The notes beneath the pieces were generated by a model, which had not been told where the DNA came from, did not search any database, and saw nothing but the letters and a program-made list of their open reading frames with translations. A program made the position numbers and the translations under genes. DNA of 48,324 nt from a virus, in IMG/VR virus record IMGVR_UViG_3300044619_002106, positions 1-48,324 of that record; one strand, written 5' to 3'. Positions 4,920-48,258 of the stretch are shown in pieces. Positions within the stretch are counted from its first letter, which is position 1. The number at the start of each line of letters is the position of its first letter.

Positions 4920-5181
4920 GGCGCATCCTCGCGATCTCGATGGCCGCTTCCCGGGAGAAGACAGGCACCGTGTTGCTCTTATGCATCGTCGCGAGACCCA
5001 GTGCCTCGCCGGTGTAGCGAGGTGATTCGACTCTCGGTGCGGGCGCTTCGCCCGTCGAGACACTGTGCCGTGTGTCGTCGCCACGAGGGCGCTCGAAACG
5101 CGGCGAAAGGACAGGGGAAGCGACGTCAGCCGGGACGAACCCGGCCGACTTCCACTTGCCTGCGAAGCGCTGGGGCTTCAC
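4912..5181 (-). CDS. Hypothetical protein (89 aa)
   Basis: Starts at ATG 5181, overlapping the upstream gene by four bases. The middle (about 20-60) is Pro/Arg/Ser-rich and probably unfolded; the ends are short helices. No motif is recognised. The low complexity makes the call weaker, but the coupled overlaps on both sides support it. Confidence 0.5.
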   Translation of the reverse strand: MKPQRFAGKWKSAGFVPADVASPVLSPRFERPRGDDTRHSVSTGEAPAPRVESPRYTGEALGLATMHKSNTVPVFSREAAIEIARMRRG

Positions 5182-5417
5182 GCGAGACCGAGCTCGCGGT
5201 CAATGCGAGCGAGCCGGCGCAAGGCCTTGGTGCGCAGCTTGTACTGGCGGTGGCCGATCTCGCGCAGGCGACGGCGCTCGGCGTTGCGAGTCGGGTTGGT
5301 GTGCTGGCCGAGGAAGAGACTCGGCTTCGGCCCGTCGACAACAGTCGGCACAAGGGCTTGCTTGAAGCGGCCGACGACGCGCTTGACGCCGGCGGCGATG
5401 GAACTAAGCTTGAACAT
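5178..5417 (-). CDS. Basic small protein, first gene after promoter 2 (79 aa)
   Basis: ATG 5417 has GGAG upstream and is the first gene after the promoter/palindrome at 5461-5510. The C-terminal half is very basic (NAERRRLREIGHRQYKLRTKALRRLARI) and helical, so it could bind nucleic acid or a host protein. A longer reading to 5462 runs into the palindrome and is not favoured. It is followed without a gap by at least ten coupled genes. Confidence 0.65.
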   Translation of the reverse strand: MFKLSSIAAGVKRVVGRFKQALVPTVVDGPKPSLFLGQHTNPTRNAERRRLREIGHRQYKLRTKALRRLARIDRELGLA

Positions 5418-5460
5418 GAAACGCTCCGAAAGATAGCTGTGGCCGACAGCAAGCGGGCGC

Positions 5461-5496
5461 ATACGCGCGAATTATTCGTGCATTATCCGCGCGTAT
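5461..5496. promoter_or_regulatory. Palindromic control element, copy 2
   Basis: The longest copy: perfect 9-bp arms ATACGCGCG (5461-5469) and CGCGCGTAT (5488-5496) enclose AATTAT and ATTATC around a 6-base centre. It lies 44 bases upstream of the 5178-5417 gene and contains the -10 of the minus-strand promoter at 5482-5510. Confidence 0.75.
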
Positions 5497-5510
5497 GCAC
5501 GCGGACGCAA
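5482..5510 (-). promoter_or_regulatory. Sigma70-like promoter inside palindrome 2
   Basis: On the minus strand TTGCGT (5505-5510) and GATAAT (5482-5487) are 17 bases apart. It would start transcription near 5475 and drive the genes from 5417 leftwards. The -10 sits in the right half of palindrome copy 2. Confidence 0.65.
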
Positions 5511-5520
5511 CACAGTCATC

Positions 5521-5880
5521 TCACCCCTTGTTCCCGTCCCGGCGGATGCCGAGGAAGGCTTGCACGGGGTCGCTCTCGGGCGCAGGCTCGGGCAACCCCT
5601 CCGCAAGCATCCGGTTGAGCGCCTCGATCGCTTCGGCCTCGACCGGCCCAGGCACGCGTGTGGCGGGTGCTTCCCCTTCGAGGCTCCCCGCAACGCGAGG
5701 GCGCTCAAGCTCCCGCGCCACCTCCCCGATCTCGCGATACGTCTCCCTCCTGATGATGCGCCGAAGCGTCTCGAGGCCGACTTCGGGGAAGAGGCGGGCG
5801 ATGATGGGCGCTGGTGTGCCGCCATCAGCCATCCGTCTGATTGTGAGGATCTCCGCCCTCGTGAAGATGCGGGCAGCCAT
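5521..5880 (-). CDS. HTH DNA-binding protein candidate (119 aa)
   Basis: The N-terminal ~45 residues form a clear helix-turn-helix pattern (AEILTIRRMADGGTPAPI, then FPEVGLETLRRII), like the HTH of resolvases and small phage regulators. The rest is acidic and Pro-rich (ERPRVAGSLEGEAPATRV) with a short final helix. ATG 5880 overlaps the upstream stop as TGATG. It may be a transcription factor for the palindromic elements or a small terminase-like adaptor; the sequence does not decide. It ends just before promoter 2. Confidence 0.65.
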   Translation of the reverse strand: MAARIFTRAEILTIRRMADGGTPAPIIARLFPEVGLETLRRIIRRETYREIGEVARELERPRVAGSLEGEAPATRVPGPVEAEAIEALNRMLAEGLPEPAPESDPVQAFLGIRRDGNKG

Positions 5881-6245
5881 CAGTTGAGCCTCGCGCCCTC
5901 GTCGGGCCTTGCGTGGAGCATCAGAGCGCGCCAGAGAAGCCGGCCCGTCGCGATGAAGTCCTCGTGGCGAATGCCCAGCGACGACAGGCCCTTCACGAGG
6001 GCCGACTGGCACGCGAGCATCTGCTCCGAGATGTCGCCCTGCGCCGGGCCCGCCACTTCCGTGAGCGCATACGCCCGAACGTCGCTGACCATGAGCGACG
6101 CACTTGTGAAGTGCAGCACCGCATAGCCACGCCCCGGATACCGCTTCTCGAGCTCCCCGTGCCAAGCCATCAGCTCGGGGAAGTCCTTGAAGTTGAAGGT
6201 GGATTGCGCGAGGATGCCTGCGCTTTCGCTTTCGCCCCCGCTCAT
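5880..6245 (-). CDS. Hypothetical protein (121 aa)
   Basis: Starts at ATG 6245, four bases inside the upstream gene. Mixed alpha/beta protein: FPELMAWHGELEKRYPGRGYAV, then a small-residue strand region and a C-terminal helix with HEDFIATGRLLWRALML. No catalytic motif or membrane segment is recognised. It couples through TGATG to the HTH gene downstream, so the two may act together. Confidence 0.65.
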   Translation of the reverse strand: MSGGESESAGILAQSTFNFKDFPELMAWHGELEKRYPGRGYAVLHFTSASLMVSDVRAYALTEVAGPAQGDISEQMLACQSALVKGLSSLGIRHEDFIATGRLLWRALMLHARPDEGARLN

Positions 6246-17047: not shown

Positions 17048-18508
17048 ATGTCCAAAGTCCAGCTTTCCGCAGGCCTGATCGAGTCGTTCGCCGGGGTGTA
17101 CCTCTCCCCGATGTACGACTCGCCGGTCCCGACGCCAGCCTTCCACCGGGAGTGCTGGGAGCTGTACTGCACTTTCGCAACGTACTGCGCCGTGGCAGCC
17201 CCGCGCGGGCACGCAAAGTCAACCGCTTTGACCCACGACTACGGGCTCGCCACGGCCCTCTTCCGTGTTGAAGACTACATCATTGTTGTCTCCGCGACGG
17301 AGGACCTCGCCATCCAGCACTTGGGTGACATCGCAAAGGAACTCCGCGAGAACGAAGACATCATCCGGGACTTCCAGATCGACAAGCTGACGACGGACGC
17401 CAAGACGGACATCATCGTCCGCTTCAAGGACGGCCACGAATGCCGCTTCCTGGCGAAGGGCTCCGGCCAGAAGATGCGTGGCGTGAAGTGGAACGGCAAG
17501 CGTCCCGGCCTCATCCTGTGCGATGACCTCGAGGAAGACGAGCAGGTCGAGAACCGCGATCGGCGGAAGAAGTTCTCTCGCTGGTTCTATCGCGCCCTCG
17601 TGCCCTGCCTGCGCAAGGGCGGGAAGATCCGCCTCCACGGCACGATTCTGCACGAGGATTCGCTCCTGTCCCGTGTCATGAAGGCGAAAGGTTGGGCCAC
17701 GAAGTTCTACCGCGCTCACCGCGCCTACGACGACTTCACCGAGATCCTCTGGCCCGAGCAATTCTCCGAAGACCGCCTCCGTGAGATCCAGCTCGCCTTC
17801 ATCGAAGACGGCGACCCTGGTGGCTACTCCCAGGAATACCTCAACGATCCGCTCGATCTCGCCGAGGCGTACCTCCGCAAGGACGACTTCCTCCCGATGG
17901 AGGAGCAGCATCACCGAGCCGACAAGCGTTTCTATGTCGGCTGCGACTTCGCCGTCTCCAAAGCCGACAGCGCGAACCGCACCTCCTTCACCATCGGCGG
18001 TCAGATGACGAGTAATCTCGTCGCCATCGTTGACCAGCACGTCGGTCGCTGGGACGCCGAGGAGTGGGTCGAGCGGATGTTCGAGATCAATAAGCGCTGG
18101 GCGCCCGAAGCATTCTTCGTGGAAGACGGCGTCATCTGGAAAGCCGTCTCCCCGACACTCTATCGCGAGATGCGCCTGCGCGACGAGTGGTTCACCTGCT
18201 TCCCGATTCTGCCGGTCAAGGACAAGGCAACTCGTGGCCGCCCCTACCAGAAGCGTCAGCGCGCTGGCGGCGTCGTCTACGACACGGAAGCCTCGTGGTA
18301 CCCCGGCTACCAGGCGGAGAACCTCGCCTTCACCGGTCTCTCCGACGCAAAGCTCGACGACCAGTTCGACTCGACCGCAACCCTCTTCCTCGGCCTCGAC
18401 AACGTCGCGGAGCTTGACGAAGAAGACCTCGAGCCGGAGGACGAAGTCGACATGCGCCGCAACGACCCGAGGCGGGTTGGCGGGCGTTCCTCAGTCACGG
18501 GCTATTAG
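17048..18508 (+). CDS. terL: Terminase large subunit (486 aa)
   Basis: ATP-driven DNA packaging motor and nuclease. The N-terminal ATPase has a Walker A-type AAPRGHAKST (about 50-59) and Walker B LILCDDLEEDE (about 154-164). The C-terminal RNase H-like nuclease has VGCDFAVSKAD (about 297-307) with the first catalytic Asp, and later VEDGVIW. The length is normal. It starts one base after the previous gene's TAG, so translation is coupled. It works with the portal (18542) and the likely small subunit at 9531. The headful or cos mode cannot be read from the protein alone. Confidence 0.93.
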   Translation: MSKVQLSAGLIESFAGVYLSPMYDSPVPTPAFHRECWELYCTFATYCAVAAPRGHAKSTALTHDYGLATALFRVEDYIIVVSATEDLAIQHLGDIAKELRENEDIIRDFQIDKLTTDAKTDIIVRFKDGHECRFLAKGSGQKMRGVKWNGKRPGLILCDDLEEDEQVENRDRRKKFSRWFYRALVPCLRKGGKIRLHGTILHEDSLLSRVMKAKGWATKFYRAHRAYDDFTEILWPEQFSEDRLREIQLAFIEDGDPGGYSQEYLNDPLDLAEAYLRKDDFLPMEEQHHRADKRFYVGCDFAVSKADSANRTSFTIGGQMTSNLVAIVDQHVGRWDAEEWVERMFEINKRWAPEAFFVEDGVIWKAVSPTLYREMRLRDEWFTCFPILPVKDKATRGRPYQKRQRAGGVVYDTEASWYPGYQAENLAFTGLSDAKLDDQFDSTATLFLGLDNVAELDEEDLEPEDEVDMRRNDPRRVGGRSSVTGY

Positions 18509-38281: not shown

Positions 38282-38481
38282 GGAAACAGCTCCCAACGCA
38301 TACCTACGCGGTCGAGCTGGCGTAGGGTTTCCTGGTAGGTTTCCCAGGCTTTTTGCGGCGTAGCTCCGGTAAAAGTCCTGCCTATACCACGGCCATCTCG
38401 AACGATGCACACCCAATACCTGCCACCAACTTTCTTGAGATGGGGTTTCTTTGGCGTCACTCCGCGCGTAAGCTGGCTCAC
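38278..38481 (-). CDS. Small protein between polymerase and helicase-like gene (67 aa)
   Basis: The GTG start shares the last base of the polymerase TAG, with GGGGAG eight bases upstream. It reads KPHLKKVGGRYWVCIVRDGR, then GIGRTFTGATPQKAWETYQE. Small proteins with a WVC..dGrgiGrtftGaTp.kAW pattern are frequent near phage polymerase genes; the role is unknown. Its ATGA overlap with the helicase-like gene shows coupling. Confidence 0.7.
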   Translation of the reverse strand: MSQLTRGVTPKKPHLKKVGGRYWVCIVRDGRGIGRTFTGATPQKAWETYQETLRQLDRVGMRWELFP

Positions 38482-40925
38482 TAGCAATCTCCCCACGAAA
38501 CAGTACTCGTCTTGCGGCCGCTCGGGATGATCAGGGGATCGTCGTAGGGGAGAACGATCCGCGATGCCTCGTCGAGCTGGCGATGCGCCTCGTCTCGCCG
38601 ATGGATCGGATACTGCCCGACGAGCGAGTCGTGTACCTGCAGCAGTACCCAGATCATTGGGTGGCGCTCGTGCAGGTCCATCCAGATGCGGTTGATGTAG
38701 AGGGCGACCGTGGACTGCGGCACCCACGCGATGGCTTCGCGGAACGTCGCCTCGTCGATGCGGCCGAAGTAGTAGCGGCGGTAGCCGAAGATGTTCTGGA
38801 CGTAGCGGCGGGCCGAGACGCGCTCGCAGAAGTCCTTTTGCCAAGCCTTGATCCGGCGCATCCGGCCGAGGTACCAAGCCTGCGCCCGTTCCGCCTCGTG
38901 GACGGTGAGGCCCAGACGCGCGGACAAGCCGTGCGGAGTGCCGAGGTAATGGGTGCCGTGTGCAAAGCTCTTGAACGTCCGGTACTTCGGATTCTCAGAG
39001 CCATCGCTCTTGAGCTTCGTGATCGTCGGGTCTTTGTAGAACTCCCGGGCGATCTCGATGTAGGGGTCCTTGCCCTCGCGCAGCATCGCTTTCATCTCAG
39101 GCTCGTCCGCCTCCCAAGTCACGATGCGGAGGTCGGCCTTCGAGAGGTCTTGGTCGAACATCTCGAAGCCGTCGTCGGGAATGAAGAGCTTTCGGACGTT
39201 CGGCAGCACGAGACCGGAGTCGTCATCCTCACCACCCTTCGGGACGTTCTGCAGGTTCGTGCCGGAGCCAAACGCGTTCTCGGAGGACGAGAAGCGGAAC
39301 GTCTCGGTGCCACAGATGTTGTAGCTCGTCCGCATCCTGCCGTCGACGTCGAGAGGTGCGTTGACGAAGGTCGCGAGGAAGACGCCGAGGCTCCGGTACT
39401 CTGCAATGCGACGGATCAGGGGAGCGAGGATCGGCTCACGCAGGGCGATCTTGCGGAGTGCCTCATCGTCGCAGGTGAGGTGCCCCGGGACACCCTTCTT
39501 CGCGCGGGTGTAGTTCGCGGGTTGCTTCAGGTCTTCGTAGAAGAGCTTCGACATCTGGAGCGGCGACTTCGGATTCAGCGAGTGGCCGAGGACGCGGTGG
39601 AAGAACGCCTCGCGTTCAGCGATCTCGTTCATCAGCTCGACTTGCATCGTGCTCCGCAGCTTCTTGTCGATCCGCACGCCGCGCTGCATGCACTGGAGCA
39701 CGGCCCAGAAGAACTTCTGCTGGAACGCATCGACCTCGGTGAGCCCGAGCTTGTCGAGGGTTTGCGCGGAGACCTCGCCTACCTCGCGCGTCCGCACGCA
39801 GTCTTCGCAGTTATACTTCCAGCGCCGTTCCTCGGGGACTTTCTCATCCGCGACCTTGCCGTCGTCCTTCCAGTAGACGTAGTGATCGCAGTACATCGAG
39901 GCTTGGTATGCAAGGGACTTGGGGAGGCCGCACCAAGCGGAGTGGTGCGAGATCATCGTGTCCTGGGCGACGCGAGGAACGAAGTGCCAGTAGCGATACG
40001 TGTACTGGCAGTCGTACAAGAGGTTCTGGCCGCGGATCTTCACACGCGGGTGAGTCATTACGCGGTACAGGCGCCAGACGATCGCCGCTTCCTCGCTCGC
40101 GAGCCAGTAGCCCGACGAGTCCGAGCGGCACATGATCGGGATGCAGATTGCTTCGTCGCGGGACCACGAGAGGCCGACGGTCTCGATGTGGAACGCCTTG
40201 GTCTCGAGGTCGAAGTCGATCCACTCGAGTTCGCCTGCGTCGAGCCTGCGTAGGAGTTCCCCGAGCACGCCGAGCACGGTGTCGATATTCGGCTTGACGA
40301 TGAACTCCCAGTTCGGGAGATTCGAGTACGTCTTGCTGCCGCGTTCGCGCGCGACTCGCTTGAGGTCGTTGACGACGATCGCCCGCTGTGTCATGTCGCG
40401 CAGCACGAAGGCGGGGTGGAGCGTCGGGATGAGCTTGATGCGCGGAGGCGTCCAGCCCGGCGTGATGAGGTCGACGGGCCAGAGCTCGGCTGGAACGTCC
40501 ATGTAGAGCTGCGACCCGCGCCACTTCGTGATGCCGAGCAGGCCGGTGAGGGCCCACATTGCGTAGTTGCCCGCGGCGCAGATCACATCCGGCTGGACGG
40601 CGGCGATGTCACGCAGGAGGGCGTTGAACCCTGCCTTGATGATGGGGTCAACCCAGACGCCGCGGATGTTGACATAGCTTGGCTTGATGTCCTTCTTCTT
40701 CTCGGCGATCCATGCGCCGAGGTTGTTGTAGAGGGGCTGCGCGTTGACGAGGTTCGTCACGAAGCACTCGGAGCGCATGATCCCTGCGTCGTGGAGCATT
40801 CGGTTCAGCTCCTGGCCTGACGCGCCCTGGAAGGGAGCGCCCGTCGCGGCTTCAGTCTGACCGAATGCCTCGCCGACGAGCATTACCTTCGCAGGGACCG
40901 GGCCGTCACCGGGGTAGAGGTGCAT
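38481..40925 (-). CDS. Family A DNA polymerase with N-terminal uracil-glycosylase-like domain (814 aa)
   Basis: Residues 1-~200 resemble family 4/5 uracil-DNA glycosylase: VMLVGEAFGQTEAATGAPFQ, CAAGNYAMWALTG and LIPTLHPAFVLR. Next is an intact 3'-5' exonuclease (DFDLE, about 240; GQNLLYDCQYT; YNCED). The polymerase part has FRFSSS...NLQNVPKG, motif A QDLSKADLRIV (Asp where most have Glu), an O-helix KSFAHGTHYLG (His at the usual Phe/Tyr place) and motif C VHDSLV (Ser replacing the usual Glu). It copies the phage genome; the glycosylase-like part suggests uracil sensing. Start 40925 has GGGAGG upstream. The motif changes are unusual but the essential Asp residues are kept. Confidence 0.92.
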   Translation of the reverse strand: MHLYPGDGPVPAKVMLVGEAFGQTEAATGAPFQGASGQELNRMLHDAGIMRSECFVTNLVNAQPLYNNLGAWIAEKKKDIKPSYVNIRGVWVDPIIKAGFNALLRDIAAVQPDVICAAGNYAMWALTGLLGITKWRGSQLYMDVPAELWPVDLITPGWTPPRIKLIPTLHPAFVLRDMTQRAIVVNDLKRVARERGSKTYSNLPNWEFIVKPNIDTVLGVLGELLRRLDAGELEWIDFDLETKAFHIETVGLSWSRDEAICIPIMCRSDSSGYWLASEEAAIVWRLYRVMTHPRVKIRGQNLLYDCQYTYRYWHFVPRVAQDTMISHHSAWCGLPKSLAYQASMYCDHYVYWKDDGKVADEKVPEERRWKYNCEDCVRTREVGEVSAQTLDKLGLTEVDAFQQKFFWAVLQCMQRGVRIDKKLRSTMQVELMNEIAEREAFFHRVLGHSLNPKSPLQMSKLFYEDLKQPANYTRAKKGVPGHLTCDDEALRKIALREPILAPLIRRIAEYRSLGVFLATFVNAPLDVDGRMRTSYNICGTETFRFSSSENAFGSGTNLQNVPKGGEDDDSGLVLPNVRKLFIPDDGFEMFDQDLSKADLRIVTWEADEPEMKAMLREGKDPYIEIAREFYKDPTITKLKSDGSENPKYRTFKSFAHGTHYLGTPHGLSARLGLTVHEAERAQAWYLGRMRRIKAWQKDFCERVSARRYVQNIFGYRRYYFGRIDEATFREAIAWVPQSTVALYINRIWMDLHERHPMIWVLLQVHDSLVGQYPIHRRDEAHRQLDEASRIVLPYDDPLIIPSGRKTSTVSWGDC

Positions 40926-41636: not shown

Positions 41637-41767
41637 CAGAAGGTTCTCCAGAAGGCTTGAAGCAGGAAGGGGCCGAGCTGCAGAGAGGCGTTGCGCGTCG
41701 TGATGGAGAAGACCAACGCCCAAGAATCCAGCTCCCGGTAGCAGTGGAAGTAGACGCCGTTCTCCAT
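41636..41767 (-). CDS. Very small protein (43 aa)
   Basis: The ATG at 41767 overlaps the TGA of the methyltransferase (TGATG) and its TGA overlaps the ExoX ATG in the same way. The product starts MENGVYFHCYRELDSW and is otherwise hydrophobic/aromatic with a predicted beta-rich body (ALVFSITTRNASLQLG). The perfect double overlap is the evidence for it being a gene; function unknown. Confidence 0.6.
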   Translation of the reverse strand: MENGVYFHCYRELDSWALVFSITTRNASLQLGPFLLQAFWRTF

Positions 41768-43116
41768 CAGAACAAGCCTTGGTCGAATGCCGAGAGCGCC
41801 TTGACGCGCTTCACTGCGATGCCGTAGGCGTTTGCGTCGCCCTCGATCATTGTGCAGGGAAGCTTCAGCTCGTGCGCCGCTTCGACCGTCCCGCCGCTGC
41901 CGCCGAACAAATCGAGCACGGACATGCCGGGGCGAGCGGAACGCTTCAGGAGGTTCGTCAACAGCGCGACAGGCTTCTGTGCGGGGTGGCCGAGTGCCTG
42001 GTCCTTGCGGCACTCGATGACGTCTCCTTGGAGTGTGGTCGTTTTGAGCCCGCCCTTCACGGCGTAGAGGACGAGTTCGTACTTCCGCTGCGGACCTTGC
42101 TCGGGCCACGGAGCGCGGAAGCCGTCGGGGTTGTGCCAGATCAGTGGGGTGCGGTGGACCTTCCACCCGGCCTTGGCCATGCGCTCGCGCAGTTCGGGGA
42201 AGCGGTCGATGTCGCAGAAGACGTAGGCGTGCGCATCGGGCTTGGCGAGGCGGAACGTCGCATCAGGGAAGATCGCCATGATGCGGGACCAGGTGTCGTA
42301 GTCGTCCTTGTAGAAGTGAGCGGCTGCGCCAACGCCTTGGCCGCTGTCCCCGAACTCGTCTGCCCCCATACCGTAAGGCGGATCGGTCAGGATGATGTCG
42401 AACTGCTCGGGCTTCTCGGTCGTGATCCAGGAGAAGAAGTCAGCGTGCTCCAGACGGTGAGACTGCGAGGAGAACGTGGCGCCGACGGTCGCTGCGAGCT
42501 CGACGTTGCGCGCGACCTCCTCGCGCTTCTTGAGGATCTTGTAGGCTTCCTTGGGCGTCTTCGCCGCCTTGACTTCGGGGTCGTCGAGGTGCTTGGCGAG
42601 GATGACGTTGCGGCGGACGGTCGTCTGGTAGTCGCCGAGTGCGCCTGCAGGGACGGAGGCAGGGATGTCGAAGACCTCGCGTGCGATGTCGCCTACTGTC
42701 GGCGCAGGCTCGCCCCGCTGCTCTGCTTGCGCAGTGCGGAGCGTCATCAGGCGGGAGTCCGCTTCGGCGCGTTCCTGCCACGAGAGGTCGACCCGGCGGA
42801 TGTTCTCCTCGAGCTCCGCCTCTTCTGCCGCGAGGGGGTCGAGCTCGCCGATGTCGACGTAGGGGACCATGCCAACAGGGACTTCGACCCCGTCGTAGGT
42901 GAAGGTCCGGCCCAGCTCGTACATGTCGGTGATGGCGCGGAGGCGGCGCTCACCGGCGACCAGCACGAGAAGGTCGTTGTCATTGCGCAGGACTGGTGCG
43001 TGGAACAGCCCGTGCTTCTCGATCGAGTCGCCGAGTTCGACAAGGGCAGCCTCGTCGAAGGTACGCCGCTGCCGGTTCGGCGCGACGGTGATGGTCTTGA
43101 GGGGGATGAACTTCAC
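41767..43116 (-). CDS. ParB-domain / DNA methyltransferase fusion (449 aa)
   Basis: The N-terminal ~130 residues are a ParB/Srx-like domain (NRQRRTFDEAALVELGDSIE, then LVAGERRLRAI). A helical linker precedes a DNA amino-methyltransferase: TDPPYGMG (motif IV, about 245) comes before LDLFGGSGGT (SAM-binding motif I, about 400), the beta-class order. Known ParB-methyltransferase fusions are frequent in phages. It probably protects DNA against restriction or marks it for packaging. It has no restriction partner here. The target sequence cannot be read from the protein. Confidence 0.88.
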   Translation of the reverse strand: MKFIPLKTITVAPNRQRRTFDEAALVELGDSIEKHGLFHAPVLRNDNDLLVLVAGERRLRAITDMYELGRTFTYDGVEVPVGMVPYVDIGELDPLAAEEAELEENIRRVDLSWQERAEADSRLMTLRTAQAEQRGEPAPTVGDIAREVFDIPASVPAGALGDYQTTVRRNVILAKHLDDPEVKAAKTPKEAYKILKKREEVARNVELAATVGATFSSQSHRLEHADFFSWITTEKPEQFDIILTDPPYGMGADEFGDSGQGVGAAAHFYKDDYDTWSRIMAIFPDATFRLAKPDAHAYVFCDIDRFPELRERMAKAGWKVHRTPLIWHNPDGFRAPWPEQGPQRKYELVLYAVKGGLKTTTLQGDVIECRKDQALGHPAQKPVALLTNLLKRSARPGMSVLDLFGGSGGTVEAAHELKLPCTMIEGDANAYGIAVKRVKALSAFDQGLF

Positions 43117-46711: not shown

Positions 46712-47007
46712 GTAGGGTCTCCTTTCGTGAGACGTTGCAAGACGTTGTCGAGTGCGGCGATGCGCGTCGAGCTCTCTTCGACGAGGTTGGCCTTGTCGGT
46801 GAGGATCTTGGCGCGCATGGCCTCGGCGATGGTGGTGCGAGGCGGCATGACGAAGGCGACGTCGACCTCGGCGAACTTGACGTAGCCGACGAAGGATGAG
46901 CTGGGTTCGCTCACCAGGACGTAGGGCTCGCCTTTCGAGTTCAGCGGGATCGAAGCGTCGTCAGCGACCATGATGAACAGGCCAATCAGCTTGGTGCGTT
47001 GCGTCAT
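46708..47007 (-). CDS. Hypothetical protein (99 aa)
   Basis: ATGA overlap with the upstream gene. Beta-rich first half (LIGLFIMVADDASIPLNSKG, FVGYVKFAEVDVAFVMPPR), helical second half (AEAMRAKILTDKANLVEESS). No recognised motif. Belongs to the coupled set between the two DNA-binding genes. Confidence 0.6.
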   Translation of the reverse strand: MTQRTKLIGLFIMVADDASIPLNSKGEPYVLVSEPSSSFVGYVKFAEVDVAFVMPPRTTIAEAMRAKILTDKANLVEESSTRIAALDNVLQRLTKGDPT

Positions 47008-47288
47008 TCGAGGGCTTCCAGGTGTTGCTTGAGGTGATCGAGGACGTCAGCGCGGCCGCGGATGACAGCGGCGCCGGGCTGCGTGCCGAGGTACGGCGCA
47101 AGGTCGAGGGCCTTCGATGCAAAGTACTCGGCGAGACGCTCGAGGAAGAAACGCTGGTACGCGCCCTTCGGGACGCGGCCTTCGAGGGGGGAGAACAACT
47201 CGAGATCCAGGCGGGTGCGCACGGTCTCCGGGAGATGGAGATTCGTGGCGACCGTTGGCTCGGTCAAGGGAGGGCGACCGCGGGGCAT
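47004..47288 (-). CDS. AT-hook + ribbon-helix-helix-like DNA-binding protein (94 aa)
   Basis: Starts MPRGRPPLTEP, a minimal AT-hook (RGRPP). TNLHLPETVRTRLDLELFSP and VPKGAYQRFFLERLAEYF read as the strand-helix-helix of a ribbon-helix-helix regulator or small DNA-binding protein. The C-terminus is helical. It abuts the 47288-47821 gene and is a second candidate for binding the palindromic elements. ATG overlaps that stop by one base. Confidence 0.72.
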   Translation of the reverse strand: MPRGRPPLTEPTVATNLHLPETVRTRLDLELFSPLEGRVPKGAYQRFFLERLAEYFASKALDLAPYLGTQPGAAVIRGRADVLDHLKQHLEALE

Positions 47289-47821
47289 CAGAGCTTCCTT
47301 GGCAGGTCTTTGAAGTGCGGCCGTGACGACGACATGCGGCCAGTGACAGTGCCGCTGTGCTTGTACTCCACACCGGCCGCAACTGCAAGGATGCGCTCCT
47401 CGAGCTTGGTCAAGTCAGCGCAGGCGAGTTCCGTCTTGTCGGCACTGCTGTTCGAGAAGTTGCCGAAGTTGTCGAACATCCAGGACGAGGCGCGCCGGAG
47501 TTGCTTTTCGTAGTCCGCCGCCATTAAGGCGTAGATCGAGTCGTCCAGCTCATCCATGGTGATGCTGTCGTGGACGCGGCCGCCGTAGAGCTTGGCGAAC
47601 TCTCGATTCTTCGCGAGCTTCCTCGCCGCCGCGTCTTCCGGCGAAACGCCTTTCGGGGTCTCGAGGCTCGTGAAGAACTTCCCGTCTGGGGCGAGGAACA
47701 CGCCGGGGCGCGTCTCGACAGGGGCAGGCGGAGGCGCTGGGACTTCGTCGCGCCGGGGCAAGCGTGCGCCGAGGATGAGTGCGTCGCCGACGATCGGCTG
47801 GTCGTAGCGGAGGTGCTTCAC
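47288..47821 (-). CDS. Small protein with DNA polymerase A-like motifs in reversed order (177 aa)
   Basis: GTG start overlapping the previous stop (GTGA). After a Pro-rich region it carries ARKLAKNREFAKLYGG (66-81), which has the exact O-helix spacing R67-x3-K71-x3-F75-x3-YG; then ACADLTKLEERILA (133-146), which fits motif A (D136-x4-E141-x-R143); and last HSGTVTGRMSSSRPHFKDLP (155-174), like the TGR-x-SSS-x-P region. In a real polymerase the order is TGR, A, O-helix; here it is the reverse. The protein is far too short to be a polymerase. A decoy, an interaction mimic or an unusual recombinant are open possibilities. Confidence 0.75.
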   Translation of the reverse strand: MKHLRYDQPIVGDALILGARLPRRDEVPAPPPAPVETRPGVFLAPDGKFFTSLETPKGVSPEDAAARKLAKNREFAKLYGGRVHDSITMDELDDSIYALMAADYEKQLRRASSWMFDNFGNFSNSSADKTELACADLTKLEERILAVAAGVEYKHSGTVTGRMSSSRPHFKDLPRKL

Positions 47822-48009: not shown

Positions 48010-48258
48010 TCAAAGGGATTTTTTGTTGCCAGGCTGCGGGGCGGCTGCGAGCATGGCGCGGTATGCGTCGGCGGCACACTCCATTCGGGCCGTGTAATGG
48101 CCGTCTCGAGGCTCTCGGTAGTTGCTGGACGCAGCCATTTGCATGTCCCACGTCGGCTCCACCGGCACCAGCTTCCACCCCTGCGGCACCTGCGGCGCGG
48201 ACGCGAGGGCGGCGCGCAGACACTCCACCCGCGAATCCCCCGCGTAGTGGTTGAGCAT
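48010..48258 (-). CDS. Conserved phage protein with GWKLVPVEPT motif (82 aa, longer across the junction)
   Basis: The frame APQVPQGWKLVPVEPTWDMQ, then an Ala-rich helix (CAADAYRAMLAAAPQPG), is typical of a common small phage protein found in many genomes with no assigned role. The ATG at 48258 is inside a frame that stays open beyond 48324; across the circular junction it could begin at a TTG near 175-177 and would then be about 122 aa. The two SNPs of the terminal overlap lie in this frame. It is the last minus-strand gene before promoter 7. Confidence 0.7.
   Translation of the reverse strand: MLNHYAGDSRVECLRAALASAPQVPQGWKLVPVEPTWDMQMAASSNYREPRDGHYTARMECAADAYRAMLAAAPQPGNKKSL

Follow-up and report, generated by a model that had tools for sequence, protein, structure and literature searches.

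The window, by which we mean the whole 48,324-nucleotide IMG/VR virus record that was analysed, contains the small gene P0001, whose modules and neighbours are listed in Table 1. P0001 is a real, coding gene. The plus-strand frame over the same interval was found to be interrupted by stops when we checked its translation, whereas in the P0001 frame an AGGA lies 8 nt upstream of the GTG, and at 47288 the stop codon shares bases with the ATG of the following gene. The GC content at codon positions 1, 2 and 3 of P0001 was 0.62, 0.46 and 0.83 (0.61, 0.41 and 0.87 in the phage's real polymerase gene), and the codon score was +0.42 bits per codon in the P0001 frame and negative in all five of the other frames, which together show that P0001 is translated in the minus-strand, 177-aa frame. 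An AlphaFold model of the protein alone was uninformative (pLDDT 47).

Elsewhere in the window, a 49-bp stretch at 48141-48189, within the gene upstream of P0001, is 84-86% identical to a hypothetical gene of 31 Pseudomonas phages (CF78a, JBD25 and others), and positions 41767-43116 (minus strand) encode a 449-aa protein in which a ParB-like N-terminus (phrog_3264) is fused to a DNA methyltransferase (phrog_67).

Table 1. Coordinates of P0001, its modules and the genes compared with it in the window.
Feature	Position	Strand	Basis
P0001, mosaic mini-PolA protein, 177 aa, GTG start	47288..47821	minus	open frame, AGGA 8 nt upstream, codon usage, stop/start overlap
O-helix (motif B) module of the PolA fingers, VSPEDAAARKLAKNREFAKLYGG, residues 59-81, with 3 extra residues after VSPE	47579..47647	minus	PSSM p=2.8e-4
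VHDS, residues 83-86, motif C-like, probably linker	47564..47575	minus	best motif-C block p=0.012, elsewhere in P0001
Motif A-like ACADLTKLEERILAVAAGVE, residues 133-152 (D136-x4-E141-x-R143)	47366..47425	minus	PSSM p=4.6e-4
PolA TGR motif GTVTGRMSSSRPHFKDLPRK, residues 157-176, extreme C-terminus	47294..47353	minus	PSSM p=4.7e-12
94-aa neighbour (MPRGRPP...LDLELFSPLEGRVPKGAYQRFF)	47004..47288	minus	homologues in L002, L007, L033, L034 and 65 IMG/VR loci
The phage's real DNA polymerase (UDG + 3'-5' exo + PolA)	38481..40925	minus	Pfam PF00476 E=9.7e-39, PF03167 E=3.2e-20

Polymerase motifs in P0001

The three motifs of P0001 have their source in DNA polymerase family A (PolA; PF00476). When the translation was re-read, R67-x3-K71-x3-F75-x3-Y79-G80 of the O-helix and D136-x4-E141-x-R143 of motif A were at the residues originally claimed, and the TGR segment TGRMSSSRPHFKDLPRK was at residues 160-176, as predicted. 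The reversed order of the modules was also borne out, as P0001 runs from the O-helix (67-80) through motif A (136-146) to TGR (160-176), whereas the normal PolA order is TGR, A, B (the O-helix) and C. We aligned 30 family-A polymerases (from phages, plus one Salmonella Pol I), built block PSSMs from the 28 complete ones, and corrected the block p-values of P0001 for its own composition and length. The joint p-value of the three blocks in one 177-aa protein was ~6e-19. In the scan of 5,365 stop-to-stop frames from the window and the collected loci, P0001 (product 5e-18) ranked first, true and split polymerases aside, and these alone attained comparable scores.

General libraries detected just the TGR piece of P0001, and weakly: Pfam DNA_pol_A matched residues 152-174 only (E=0.23), phrog_17 was the sole match among the PHROGs (E=0.062), and Pol I chains in the PDB matched the TGR piece with E-values of 0.75-1.1. 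Tested against the whole PF00476 domain, P0001 scored 10.8 bits, below the curated cut-off of 34.3. With its motifs in the wrong order, its palm and thumb missing and its score far under the Pfam cut-off, P0001 is, as judged from its sequence, not a polymerase.

A strict motif A signature pattern had four matches in IMG/VR, two of which were gp12 genes of the family described below, and three in GTDB genomes, namely an IleRS, a ThrRS and a surface protein. Because this pattern also occurs in tRNA synthetases, motif A alone is not diagnostic and was not used as proof. Chance resemblance in an unrelated protein could draw on these motif A-like helices of IleRS and ThrRS, and on the chance-like TGRMSQSTPDL of a Ser-rich Arthrobacter phage protein. 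However, the joint p-value of the three blocks, the first rank of P0001 among 5,365 frames, and the family of mini-proteins with PolA modules that shares its slot (see below) make it a highly improbable explanation.

The Arthrobacter protein is gp125 of phage Mimi (L019:2336-2896), a Ser-rich hypothetical protein encoded in a tRNA array and common to two further Arthrobacter phages; its STGRMSQSTPDLKTTPKK matches the TGR block (p 1.4e-7), probably by chance. In a 710-aa frame of another locus (P0009, L070 rc 430-2562), DMDFSKIEERVLAHF resembles motif A (block p 6e-5) and TGRWSGG and LRDYQ are also present; its family matches were weak, and it was not assignable. Motif C (HDE/HDS) carries the second catalytic Asp of PolA. 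VHDS of P0001 was considered as such a motif, a reading that the block score did not support, the motif C block being non-significant at this site (Table 1); in our reading, the VHDS region resembles GGQVPDDLRSIF, the stretch after the O-helix of one of the cassette mini-proteins described below. Block scoring did not support reading ADYEKQLRRASSW of P0001 as O1/O2.

The phage's own polymerase joins a uracil-DNA-glycosylase-like N-terminus to an exonuclease and PolA, a polymerase type that we also observed in MW202489, Microcystis phage Mel-JY34 and several IMG/VR relatives. Its motifs are divergent (TETFRFSSS, DLSKADLR and RTFKSFAHGTHYLG), and since they differ from those of P0001, P0001 was not derived from it. 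The original prediction had described this polymerase as off consensus at the O-helix and at motifs A and C, which is partly right at most: it outscored P0001 in motif A (34.1 against 14.9 bits) and the O-helix (26.4 against 14.7), and scored below P0001 in TGR alone (19.7 against 35.1 bits).

No direct homologue of P0001 was found by 8-mer scans of IMG/VR and GTDB genomes or by tblastn against 50,697 phage records, and with P0001 as the query, whole relatives and 50 syntenic records gave just TGR segments of polymerases and matches without relevance to it. When motif A with TGR behind it was sought as a pattern, the GACCT variant returned nothing and the GACTT variant two matches, both of them out-of-frame coincidences in true PolA genes. 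The pattern V[ST]PE-R-AK-[FL]A-Y retrieved gp12 relatives and true polymerases.

The neighbouring gene and its slot

Pfam found nothing in the 94-aa neighbour, whose sequence has what we read as a ribbon-helix-helix-like layout. Among relatives of the window phage recruited via the polymerase, the gene is kept in the four named in Table 1, and an alignment of the 94-aa protein was used to recruit the 65 IMG/VR loci that have it. At nine of these 65 (L085-L088, L091, L093, L097, L099 and L108), a PolA fingers fragment of ~66 aa, in about six distinct sequences, lies directly upstream of the neighbour gene and adjoins or overlaps it; Pfam E-values for five of these cassette proteins were 1.4e-6 to 2.9e-4. 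As the slot is identical in these nine loci, P0001, which lies beside an LxSxLEGRVP gene with the stop/start overlap at 47288, occupies the position where these phages place a fingers fragment. Like P0001, the 66-aa proteins are encoded directly upstream of this conserved gene (LYSDLEGRVP in their loci) and contain the PolA O-helix module; unlike P0001, they are natural-order fragments (G-x-D-P...AK...Y) and have neither motif A nor TGR. The annotated phage collection contained no close relative of the 66-aa proteins or of the neighbour, polymerases and the Manatee Spring phage excepted.

A further case was found in a relative of the window phage, G003 (IMGVR_UViG_3300005325_000002), where a PolA profile matched a second, small frame (E=1e-4). 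In the product of this frame, which is 100 aa long, motif A (DFSEIEKRVLS) is followed by a pre-O/O-helix segment, and the frame directly adjoins a neighbour gene of the 94-aa type. It thus resembles P0001 in its phage, its neighbour and its possession of motif A and an O-module, but differs in running from A to O, the natural order, in lying on the opposite flank of the neighbour gene and in lacking TGR. Used as a query, the 100-aa protein retrieved phiKMV gp12 and 60-aa proteins of Pectobacterium phages.

Whole-record searches located full-length PolA elsewhere in the same records as the small fingers frames of G016, G019 and G031. The last of these (IMGVR_UViG_3300033232_000039, 75 kb) has two full-length PolA genes (17270-18394 and 5017-6174, minus strand) and a fingers fragment in an 84-aa frame. 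The joint presence of a full-length PolA and a mini-protein in the window, G003, G016, G019 and G031 would be expected if P0001 were a direct inhibitor or a subunit of a polymerase, inserting into host Pol I or the phage's own enzyme as a dominant-negative fragment or accessory domain, and fragment complementation and interference are generic modes of action for such pieces. However, the motifs of P0001 are those of the catalytic cleft and not of the known PolA dimer or subunit interfaces, and with such binding being putative, we consider this explanation improbable.

Small polymerase-derived proteins of other phages

The counterpart most like P0001 in its order of modules is gp12 of phiKMV (phrog_6982, Phikmvvirus, 269 aa), in which Pfam DNA_pol_A matched residues 4-40 (E=4.6e-6) and the O-helix module is followed by the motif A-like YDYADLEARVAASL, the same O-then-A order as in P0001. 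As in P0001, the phage of this small protein has a separate, full-length polymerase. Like P0001, gp12 is encoded towards the close of the early region, and its motif residues are invariant among divergent gp12s: five of them, down to 41% identity, all retain R27, R28, A30 and K31 in the O-helix and D78, E83, V86 and A88 in motif A. In comparisons of phiKMV with MPK7 and Ab05 gp12, pN was 0.16-0.20 in the O-module and 0.52 in the tail, so that by its substitutions the O-module is constrained while the tail diverges. The gp12 O-module was modelled confidently (pLDDT 69-79), and over ~36 residues the model superposed on the Pol I fingers, in most cases to within 0.6-1.2 A, with E-values >0.2 owing to the shortness of the module. 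In contrast to P0001, gp12 proteins are 241-312 aa long, have a long helical tail with a hydrophobic end and no TGR, and were not beside the 94-aa gene in the stretches examined; gp12 and P0001 have no overall alignment outside the modules, and P0001 has no match to the phrog_6982 profile.

Databases label gp12 a "putative DNA-binding protein" or a "DNA polymerase". RLP gp12 is a hybrid, with a head of the Ab05 type joined to a tail of the phiKMV type. Module swapping is typical of conflict genes, and the swapping apparent in gp12 would fit a role in conflict, of which it is no proof. A systematic knock-out study of PpY1, a phiKMV-like phage, lists viable and non-viable deletions, and gp15, its homologue of gp12, appears among neither (PMC11596505).

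Among the gp12 proteins, those of the MPK7/Ab05/RLP type (L050:501-1439, L061:4134-5072, L058:2613-3491) have a second O-helix-like stretch, RKVCKHRALGAAFGM; a segment resembling PolA O1/O2 was scored in the MPK7/Ab05 type (p ~4e-4), and motif A of the MPK7/Ab05/RLP type, DFTKIEEHVLA in RLP and Ab05, has the TK-EE of P0001.

Excised O-helix modules were also found in proteins of 60-284 aa from Acinetobacter, Pectobacterium and Vibrio phages. The 62-aa Friunavirus proteins (phrog_38792-like) consist of the O-module alone in a small early-region gene, and Pectobacterium PPWS2 ORF5 (60 aa), also in the early region, has in addition an A-like start. The 284-aa protein of Vibrio phage KarBoss has, unlike P0001, a Zn-finger-like C-terminus. 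In this KarBoss protein (L052:988-1842) we also observed a zinc-ribbon-like N-terminus before the O-helix module and a further CxxC...CxxC stretch after it. Replacement by Ala of the Gly that follows the O-helix Phe was considered as a mark of mini-proteins, and was dropped when it was seen to occur in real phage PolA as well. P0001 likewise has its O-helix module in a small protein distinct from the phage polymerase, and was the sole carrier of TGR among the mini-proteins examined.

An HMM of six mini-proteins from outside the cassette matched P0001 at residues 57-82 with 10.6 bits, a score equalled by 0 of 20,000 shuffles. One built from the 66-aa cassette proteins alone missed it, as 1,214 of 20,000 shuffles attained the score of P0001; the link between P0001 and the cassette therefore consists of position and the common PolA module. 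The literature searched, mostly without the full texts of subscription journals, contained no description of such a class of mini-proteins.

P0001 might alternatively be debris, made of fragments of a lost second polymerase that were rearranged, fused in frame and kept by inertia without any function. This would agree with the lack of P0001 homologues and with the natural order of some small PolA pieces (P0005, P0007 and the 66-aa proteins), as remnants would show, and in Friunavirus the polymerase gene is frequently interrupted or has HNH endonucleases beside it (PMC5537680). We nevertheless consider debris rather unlikely. P0001 has a strong codon signal and translational coupling, its slot and neighbour are common to other phages, and the gp12 O-module is constrained while the tail diverges; moreover, to arrive at B, A and TGR as separate blocks with their order reversed would have taken several rearrangements without loss of frame. 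The claim of the original prediction that polymerase-derived modules have been reused is well supported, given motifs beyond chance in a non-polymerase order and small O-helix-module proteins in independent phage families, among which phiKMV gp12 even shares the O-then-A order. The roles that it suggested, binding to template-primer, nucleotide or host PolI or competition with the latter, are candidates.

Candidate functions of P0001

The O-helix residues retained in the mini-proteins are those that touch the incoming nucleotide in the Klenow and Taq structures of Pol I. In PolA, motif A contains the Asp that binds metal and the Glu that serves as steric gate, and the primer-template cleft is lined by the TGR segment. 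A protein such as P0001, with these dNTP and primer-template faces kept and the palm and thumb discarded, would be incapable of polymerisation but could offer surfaces for recognition by another factor, and we therefore favoured active-site mimicry in interpreting it. Our tentative proposal, made with a confidence just short of even, is that P0001 is no polymerase but a mosaic mini-protein derived from one, and that it mimics the active-site cleft of PolA. That there is a polymerase-derived class of mini-proteins is very probable; the mechanism, an active-site mimic serving as a decoy or competitor, is possible without being probable. P0001 would display the pieces that contact dNTP and primer-template in a polymerase, minus the catalytic scaffold, and would compete for, or titrate, a partner that docks at the PolA cleft. 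Candidates for such a partner are an anti-polymerase factor of the host or a rival phage, the ligands of host Pol I, or a polymerase itself.

The adjacent 94-aa gene, if it encodes a DNA-binding repressor, may control or accompany P0001. This neighbour, which P0001 both adjoins and overlaps, is also relevant to another reading, that P0001 is a small nucleotide- or DNA-binding regulator whose fingers hairpin binds dNTP or template as in PolA and which acts with the adjacent DNA-binding-like protein, for example in sensing replication or controlling early transcription. The retained O-helix residues (R, K, F/Y and Y) include dNTP-facing residues of PolA, and gp12 is labelled a "putative DNA binding protein". 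However, an isolated O-helix hairpin lacks the palm, the source of most dNTP and DNA contacts, the putative DNA-binding fold of the neighbour has no Pfam match, and the gp12 phages have no 94-aa neighbour in the stretches examined, which leaves the regulator a rather unlikely alternative.

Many inhibitors and anti-defence proteins are encoded by small early genes of phages. Returning to the active-site mimic, we also considered a broader proposal, that phages of several unrelated groups make mimics from excised and reordered PolA active-site modules, and that a cellular or viral factor which recognises the PolA cleft is thereby decoyed or faced with a competitor; we regard it as unlikely. If the decoy reading is true, there would be a defence or exclusion mechanism that hits phage polymerases via their conserved active-site surface.

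In our reading, mini-proteins derived from polymerase form a class that has been overlooked, and P0001 is the most elaborate of its known members. For annotators, mini-PolA genes labelled "DNA polymerase", "DNA-binding protein" or "hypothetical" should be taken as a warning, as they are not polymerases. The related small genes, several of them in one slot, suggest that phages reuse spare polymerase pieces, and a recurrent one-module class, with a fixed slot and on one occasion reordered with two more motifs, indicates that elements of the PolA active site have uses in isolation from the polymerase.
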